From: Urechis unicinctus
Taxonomy: Eukaryota; Annelida; Polychaeta; Xenopneusta; Urechidae
DNA: 64,000 bases
Direction of reading: 5' to 3'
Assembly (NCBI GenBank): GCA_034190875.2
Contig: CM067348.1
Span: forward strand, 10,133,052-10,197,051
A model generated the notes under the pieces. That model did no database searches. It was not told the DNA's origin and saw nothing but the letters and a program-made list of their open reading frames with translations. Positions 36,836 to 39,093 of the stretch are shown piece by piece (within the stretch, counting starts at the first letter, position 1; every line of letters starts with the position of its first letter). The position numbers were made by a program, and so were the translations under genes.

Positions 36836-36873
36836 ATGACTATGTTCTACTGCACCACAGAGTCAGGACTCAC

Positions 36874-39093
36874 CTGTGGAACACCGGTATCGGATTGAAT
36901 CGGGTTTTGTAGCGTTTTACCGTCACTGGCATGGTCCTAGCACGCAATTCAAATATGCACTCGCACATGTTACAAGGTTGATCATACATCTACATCGTGA
37001 TATTCTCTGATTTTCGAGCATATGTGGGTAACCGGCATTAGTAATGTTATCATTAAGCAAAACCCGCATGAAATATTCACCTGGTTGGTTTCTTTACCCA
37101 TCAGACGGCTCCTTTCCTGGACCTGAAGCATGAGTATTAATTGATGATATTAAACGGGACTTCATCATCACATTACGAATAAAATCAGCGTCTACAACAA
37201 GGTTAAGTTGCTCTTTTGCCTTAGTATAAAGTCAACAAACCTTCATGCCGACATTGAGGTTTACACAAATTGAAGGCGACAAGTACTGGGCCTGTTTTGA
37301 TCGTACGTGACATAATTGTCGGTTATAACATATAGATCATCTAGTAACGACTAGGCTGATCTGACTCTTGTTAATATATATATATATATATATATATATA
37401 TATATATATATATATATATATATATATATATATATATATATATATATATATGTTTATATATATATATTATATATAGATATATATATATATATATATATAT
37501 ATATATATATATATATATATATCTATATATATATATATATATATATATATATATATATTCGAGTGCATTACTGAGCCAGGACTAACCTGTGAATCACCGT
37601 AGTCGGATCGCTCCACATTTTGTTGCTCTATATTAGCAGCTGCATCGTTCTAGCACGTGCAATTCAAATATGAACTCACATATGTTACATTAACATTATG
37701 CCGACATTAAAGATAAGAGAAATTGAAGGTGACAACTGTCGGTTATAAATTATAGCTAAAATGATAACGACTGGACTGATCTGGCACAAACATGTATAAA
37801 TATACATATATAGAGCTAAAAATTGTATATATATAATTATTAATACATCTGTCTAAATATGTATATGTTGATATATCTAAATATATATCATTATATGTAT
37901 ATATATATATATATATATATATATATATATATATATATATATATATATATATATATATATATATATATATATATATATATATATATATATATATATATAT
38001 ATTCGACTGCATCACAAAGCAAGGACTCACCTGTGGTGTCATTTCTTCTAGCGGTATATTGCCAGCTGCGTCGTCCTAGCACCAGCAATTTAAATATGCA
38101 ATCACACATGTAACAAGGTTGATCATACACCGTTTTTTAAACAGTTCTCCTTTGTATTTATTCCGAATTTAAAGATAAGATATATATATATATATATATA
38201 CATATATATAACACATTTTCATGACCGTCGAAAGCATATCGTCAATTTGATTAGCTATTAAATTTGCTTGCCAATTTTTGCTGGTTTCCCAAATACTACC
38301 TGCGATTCATAGAAAAAATACGCATGATTCATGCTGAGATGCAGCGGACGAAATGTTTCCTTTAGATTTCTGTGTGCTTTAAGTATGATAGCAACGACGT
38401 GTTAACTTCCGAATGCACTGCTGATTTACATTGTTTGGCTGGTAACCAGAACGTACGTCATCGACATCCATGAAAACTTTCTATGCGGTAGATATTGCCC
38501 CTTACATTTCATCGAATTTTCATGACCATCGATCCCATATTGTCGAATTTATAAGCGATTAAAACAACACCAAAACATTTCGAGTCGGGGCTACGGGTTG
38601 AGTGGGGTGGGGTCATATACATATATTTTGTTGACATGTATAATTAAAACTACAAGGAACCATTATTTGTTTTTCAAACTCGCACCGTTTAGAAGATGTC
38701 AAGGATTGAAACGTTTACCACATGACCTTGACCTTAATATGAGAAAGACTTCAAAACAAATCGCGACCTGTATCGCGAGACAATTTTTTTCAAAAAAATA
38801 TCCCACAAACATACACAGCCACAAACGCGACTGACCAGACTAACTTGTCGAATGCGAATTGGCCAAGTTGACAAAACCACAAACTGGACTGATCTTAATA
38901 ATTTGGCAATGCGAATTCGCCAAGTTAACAATGCAATCTCGTAGCACGACTATAAATTATATGTGCTCTCCATACGGCTTGATTGAAAAAGAACGTCTTA
39001 TTATAAGTCAACCCGCTTCAATTTGTTAGGTAAATACTTGTTTCGGAAACTTACATCTGGGCGGGAAGAGGTGGGTTGTTTATCTTCCCTTTT
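36874..39093 (-). CDS. array of symmetric short exons (candidate micro-exon gene, ends unknown)
   Basis: Five minus-strand intervals have acceptor and donor consensus, no stop, phase 0 at both ends and lengths divisible by three. In transcript order: 39,093-39,055 (39 nt, [13 protein letters not shown], donor GAT|GTAAGT), 38,075-38,031 (45 nt, [15 protein letters not shown]), 37,649-37,587 (63 nt, NDAAANI...YGDSQ), 37,122-37,081 (42 nt, [14 protein letters not shown]) and 36,936-36,874 (63 nt, DHASDG...TGVPQ). The second, third and fifth lie in duplicated units yet differ strongly in sequence. Peptides are polar and rich in D, N, Q, E and S. No start, stop or full gene is seen. Since all are phase 0, they could in principle join the phase-0 exon at 31,956 of chitin-binding copy C, but copy C has its own start. 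Chance open intervals remain possible. Confidence 0.42.
37373..37557. repeat. (TA)n microsatellite
   Basis: TA dinucleotide between units 1 and 2 of the short-exon array. Confidence 0.95.
37885..38002. repeat. (TA)n microsatellite
   Basis: TA dinucleotide between units 2 and 3 of the short-exon array. Confidence 0.95.
38181..39054. other. presumed intron or spacer
   Basis: Between the first two short exon candidates; AT-rich, no other feature supported. Confidence 0.4.

Follow-up and report, generated by a model that had tools for sequence, protein, structure and literature searches.

The 185/333 (SpTrf) genes of sea urchins are diversified, immune-type genes that are flanked by microsatellites and arranged in clusters of whole genes. 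In membrane receptors more generally, diversifying selection is usually sought in the ectodomain. Schistosome micro-exon genes (MEGs), as summarized in PMC5825161, contain symmetric exons of 6-36 bp that make up ~80% of the coding region, and they encode secreted or exposed proteins. For the mature regions of three MEGs, the relevant section of PMC4350168 gives dN/dS values of 1.10-1.14. According to PMC3364881, the Dscam exon clusters specify the extracellular part of the protein, and their exons are used in a mutually exclusive way. The account of the Biomphalaria PTC2 region in PMC7494358 describes clustered, diverged genes for single-pass membrane proteins in which synonymous divergence exceeds nonsynonymous divergence.

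The locus described here lies in a window of 64,000 nucleotides from Urechis unicinctus (C7:10133052-10197051), which is the whole stretch of DNA that was analysed. The assembly comprises 1.19 Gb in 926 contigs. A COX1 search of it gives no match. One bantam microRNA match exceeds its cut-off, which suggests a protostome. The probable product of the locus is a type II membrane protein whose chitin-binding ectodomain is conserved and whose N-terminal tail, encoded by cassettes, is diversifying. The cassettes would be joined by splicing, and the tail would face the cytoplasm. The relevant features are the following, from high to low coordinates.

39055-39093, minus strand: interval E, an exon candidate of 39 nt in a local repeat
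38300-38332, minus strand: interval F, 33 nt with an ATG, 11 residues
38031-38075, minus strand: putative cassette exon alpha, 45 nt, phase 0-0, 15 residues
37871-38002, no strand assigned: (TA)n after cassette alpha
37587-37649, minus strand: putative cassette exon beta, 63 nt, phase 0-0, 21 residues
37374-37558, no strand assigned: (TA)n after cassette beta
37081-37131, minus strand: exon X, the probable first coding exon, 51 nt from ATG to donor
36874-36936, minus strand: putative cassette exon gamma, 63 nt, phase 0-0, 21 residues
36675-36837, no strand assigned: (TA)n after cassette gamma
31863-31956, minus strand: exon 2 of the CBM14 gene, entered in phase 0 and left in phase 1
31503-31649, minus strand: exon 3, the first part of the ectodomain, 147 nt
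30951-31324, minus strand: exon 4, about 370 nt, two CBM14 stretches, open to the stop codon

The product would begin with exon X, continue through at least one phase-0 cassette from an interchangeable set, and end with exons 2, 3 and 4. Exon 2 would complete the tail and add the membrane segment. Two ectodomain exons would follow, the second of which would bear the CBM14 (peritrophin-A) chitin-binding repeats. The cassettes would be spliced together with X and exon 2 and used alternatively. X and all intact cassettes finish in phase 0, so the reading frame stays open whichever cassettes are chosen, provided that their order is kept. Duplication of a (TA)n-flanked module can thus add tail variants while the rest of the protein stays unbroken.

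This arrangement shares with schistosome MEGs, as those sources present them, short symmetric exons, divergent encoded peptides and a proposed generation of variation by splicing. Nine of the ten cassette copies found (see below) are symmetric in the MEG sense when taken as DNA intervals. Membership in the MEG group, judged by the dimensions given in the summary above, is rejected. The cassettes measure 45-66 nt rather than 6-36, they specify the tail alone, and they precede ordinary longer exons of a CBM14 protein (exon 3 has 147 nt and exon 4 about 370 nt). The resemblance to schistosome micro-exons drawn by the first-pass annotation therefore holds for the logic of the system, and fails for exon size and for the share of the coding region.

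Other described systems overlap with this locus in part. Arthropod Dscam-hv genes likewise carry arrays of homologous exons within a single gene, used there, and putatively here, as alternatives, whereas the present array has few copies and probably acts on the cytoplasmic side. The Biomphalaria GRC/PTC2 regions are comparable, in the portion cited, as invertebrate clusters of diverged single-pass membrane protein genes. However, divergence there affects whole proteins, whereas in the present gene it is the tail that diverges beside a conserved ectodomain. The microsatellite flanks recall those of the 185/333 genes, which encode a different protein and occur as whole-gene clusters rather than exon cassettes. 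CBM14/peritrophin-A proteins share the Pfam CBM_14 match but differ by the cassette-encoded N-terminal tail ahead of the membrane segment. A gene combining a conserved ectodomain with a cassette-diversified N-terminal tail was not found in the open-access literature searched.

A DNA search of the 1.19 Gb genome with cassette gamma identifies at least ten places, all on contig C7, and a search with a cassette from a second locus returns the identical ten, again as a lower bound. These places are spread over three loci: W, in the window, with three; A (C7:82-94 kb) with five; and B (C7:10.313-10.318 Mb) with two. Exon 2 of the CBM14 gene has three genome matches, one in each of W, A and B, and in all three loci the cassettes sit upstream of it on the same strand. 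The proposed in-frame use of these intervals ahead of the exon at 31956 gains support from the presence of copies upstream of three paralogues of the chitin-binding gene.

All ten cassette copies are open in frame. The acceptor TGCTAG is found in 10/10 and the donor GTNAGT in 9/10; the locus B copy of beta (B1) has lost its donor, and its exon runs directly into (TA)n. A pyrimidine tract is not obvious at the cassette acceptors. The nine intact cassettes are 45 (n=1), 63 (n=7) or 66 (n=1) nt long, and the alpha copy at C7:93.8 kb, at 63 nt, is 18 nt longer than its counterpart in the window without a change of frame. Length differences among intact cassettes and among exon-2 tails are multiples of three. 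Open, in-frame, AG-bounded intervals of 36-66 nt precede 12/50 minus-strand and 7/51 plus-strand donors of the form GT[AGT]AGT in the window. Since single open intervals are this common, the evidence rests on the copies and not on any one interval. Judged by their sequences, 38075-38031, 37649-37587 and 36936-36874 are homologous cassette exons that would be spliced. Each has the splice consensus, lack of stop codons, phase 0 and following (TA)n that had been described for three tandem intervals. The first-pass annotation had listed them among five such intervals. Three stand as cassettes, the interval at 37081, which lies within exon X, fits a first exon better, with its ATG at 37131, and the one at 39055 is not established as an exon.

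Exon X lies between one cassette and another and has the donor GTGAAT. Its ATG and frame are kept in W (one copy), A (two copies, identical in the exon) and B (one copy). The interval at 37081 is probably a first rather than an internal exon, because an in-frame ATG stands 51 nt before the donor and is kept in three loci. X might instead be internal, with (C/T)TT(C/A)AG as its acceptor. A motif scan finds strings resembling acidic dileucine motifs in exon X, ERSRLM in W and ESSPLM in A; they are absent from X of B and from all five cassette peptides scanned. We regard these strings as a lead only. Interval F occurs in W and B, is absent from A, and is a possible alternative first exon. The surroundings of interval E match nine places, five of which cover E itself. 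All five copies are 39 nt long and open, one has lost its donor, and the cassette loci contain only two of the five. The openness of these copies (5529/20000 column shuffles) and their codon-position bias (7372/20000) are both within chance, and interval E is kept only as a candidate exon.

The cassettes have conserved flanks and divergent cores, as had been claimed. Among the four cassette types, 35/63 exon columns are variable compared with 26/78 flank columns (Fisher p=0.0065), where the flank is the aligning part alone (50 nt before and 28 after the exon), a choice that favours an exon excess. Without the most divergent type, the counts are 28/63 and 16/78 (p=0.002). Tests on single pairs of copies are mixed. 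In X, W and B differ at 8/51 exon sites and 10/196 flank sites (p=0.016), and the corresponding results are p=0.064 for X between W and A, p=0.081 for gamma and p=0.39 for beta.

The pattern of substitutions follows one reading frame. Frame 0 is open in all 11 distinct X and cassette sequences examined, and frames 1 and 2 each contain a stop in 10/11. Variable columns fall on codon positions 1, 2 and 3 in the numbers 8, 6 and 1 in X (17 columns each) and 14, 13 and 8 in the cassettes (21 each). Column shuffles, which preserve variation but not reading frame, reach this third-position deficit in 606/20000 trials for X, 830/20000 for the cassettes and 70/20000 for the two summed. Shuffles that leave no stop in any of seven sequences number 222/20000. 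By Nei-Gojobori counting, the differences in X are all nonsynonymous between W and B (8/51 sites) and between W and A (12/51 sites), and one of 14 is synonymous between A and B. Inside the cassettes, synonymous sites differ about as much as the flanks and nonsynonymous sites differ more. Alpha, compared between W and A, has one synonymous change and no replacement besides its 18-nt length difference. The exon-2 tail, in the pair that aligns (A and B), has six nonsynonymous changes and one synonymous.

Codon models give omega 3.23 (p=0.0013) for X, the cassettes and the A-B exon-2 tail combined, and 0.27 (p=0.0065) for exons 3 and 4. These fits use our own codon model in Python with hand-chosen trees and a chi-square approximation, and they ignore gene conversion. 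Their p values are uncorrected across eight fits to short exons with few substitutions. For X alone, omega is far above 1 (p=0.006). The cassettes alone give 2.46 (p=0.030), with a range of 2.35-2.46 (p 0.030-0.034) across the three possible topologies, and the exon-2 tail alone is not significant (p=0.28). Together with the frame-specific codon pattern, omega values above 1 lend support to the suggestion of diversifying selection. The tail would be under such selection and the ectodomain, as a whole, under purifying selection. The contrast is not clean, as exon 3 and the part of exon 2 from the YC codons to the membrane segment also carry replacements. W and B differ there by four nonsynonymous and one synonymous change in exon 3, and by four and three in the exon 2 part. 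In exon 4, W and A encode an identical protein and differ by three synonymous changes.

Exon 2 encodes a variable tail segment (DMNCCGVPQ), then YCKNHKN, and then the membrane segment. Before the shared YC codons, its tail measures 27 (W), 45 (A) and 48 (B) nt, and the three versions are strongly different. Those of W and A are beyond alignment, and the adjoining introns differ at just 4/240 and 3/200 sites. The exon-2 ATG of W and B is ACG in A, so it is not a start common to all three loci. Inspection of the sequence finds basic residues before the hydrophobic stretch and acidic residues after it. The orientation of membrane proteins can be read by the positive-inside rule. Because of the basic residues in YCKNHKN before the membrane segment, the N-terminus is predicted to lie inside the cell, which would make this a type II membrane protein. 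Pfam CBM_14 matches exon 4 in two stretches with 35.8 bits against a gathering cut-off of 22.1. A PDB sequence search with exon 4 gives no match up to E 1.

A sibling gene in the window (21912-23662, plus strand) has a long open tail, a membrane segment and a CBM14 domain. In a copy at C7:20.86 Mb the tail shares one frame with the membrane part, but in the window and in locus A the two are read in different frames, so there may have been a frameshift or the loss of a segment. The long open tail is found on the same side of the membrane segment in three copies. Upstream of the CBM14 exon, the siblings at C7:20.86 Mb and on C15 have lysine-rich stretches before the hydrophobic segment, and in the sibling at C7:7.09 Mb such a stretch is not clear. 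Between the window and C7:20.86 Mb, the sibling tails have pN/pS 0.056/0.076, and thus there is no such diversification in this one sibling.

Over 12.8 kb, window positions 19685-32441 are 95% identical to C7:95600-108386, which lies 10 Mb away on the same contig. Patchy divergence between the two suggests gene conversion or a misplaced haplotype. Locus A is near a contig start and may reflect haplotype misassembly. A fourth CBM14 paralogue (C7:283517-283876) has two internal stops, one TGA and one TAA, and in the 30 kb around it neither the cassettes nor exon 2 match significantly (best E 9.1 and 4.3, respectively). A direct repeat (34194-34747 and 35890-36450, 85-90% identity, 1.7 kb apart) lies between the cassettes and exon 2. 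Two minus-strand reverse-transcriptase (RVT_1) matches (33641-34084 and 41988-42776) are probably retroelement remnants. Open frames match Abhydrolase_3 (alpha/beta hydrolase; 3326-4081, plus strand) and a RecQ-type helicase (62676-62996, minus strand). A minisatellite at 8383-9054, with ~47 copies of a 14-base unit, is mostly open in the three plus-strand frames. ARAGORN calls a pyrrolysine tRNA at 7052-7124 (minus strand), in all likelihood wrongly, since the genome is that of an animal. A Pfam scan of the three minus-strand frames of about 24000-31000 matched no family.

Several other readings of these intervals must be weighed. The upstream intervals could be untranslated or unspliced and their open frames a matter of luck, with translation starting at the ATG in the membrane segment (MIATVALLF...). 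The product would then be a secreted chitin-binding protein, and this segment its cleaved signal peptide. That ATG is conserved and in frame in all three paralogues. Even so, we consider this start unlikely, as it accounts neither for the frame-specific openness and third-position deficit nor for the sibling gene with a long open tail at the same place. It is far less probable still that the intervals are functionless remnants of a (TA)n-rich, non-coding tandem duplication. Such a duplication is in keeping with the frequency of open intervals of this size and with the donor in locus B that was lost to (TA)n, but it would have to produce ten open copies out of ten, in three loci of one gene, with the observed codon-position pattern.

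If the exons are coding, they might still be under relaxed constraint, with flanks kept alike by gene conversion or by the demands of splicing and with no diversifying selection at all. The patchy similarity of W to A and of W to B along the gene body is what conversion predicts, and several of the single-pair tests of exon against flank are not significant. Against relaxation, nonsynonymous sites in the cassettes differ more than synonymous sites, which differ about as much as the flanks, and the combined omega is above 1. On balance, we think it improbable. More ambitious is the proposal of a germline-diversifying modular system, in which (TA)n-flanked phase-0 cassettes would be duplicated and recombined between paralogues, varying the tail and not the ectodomain under an arms race or a specialization in intracellular sorting. 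This proposal is tentative, and we would sooner doubt it than adopt it. We prefer the reading as a type II membrane protein, in which the chitin-binding ectodomain is conserved and the tail diversifies through cassettes.

On that preferred reading, the tail would meet a changing intracellular partner, for example a sorting adaptor or a pathogen factor. The pairing of a conserved ectodomain with a diversified tail, if true, would place conflict or specialization on the cytoplasmic side of the membrane. The locus would then illustrate, in compact and testable form, how exon duplication can vary a protein.
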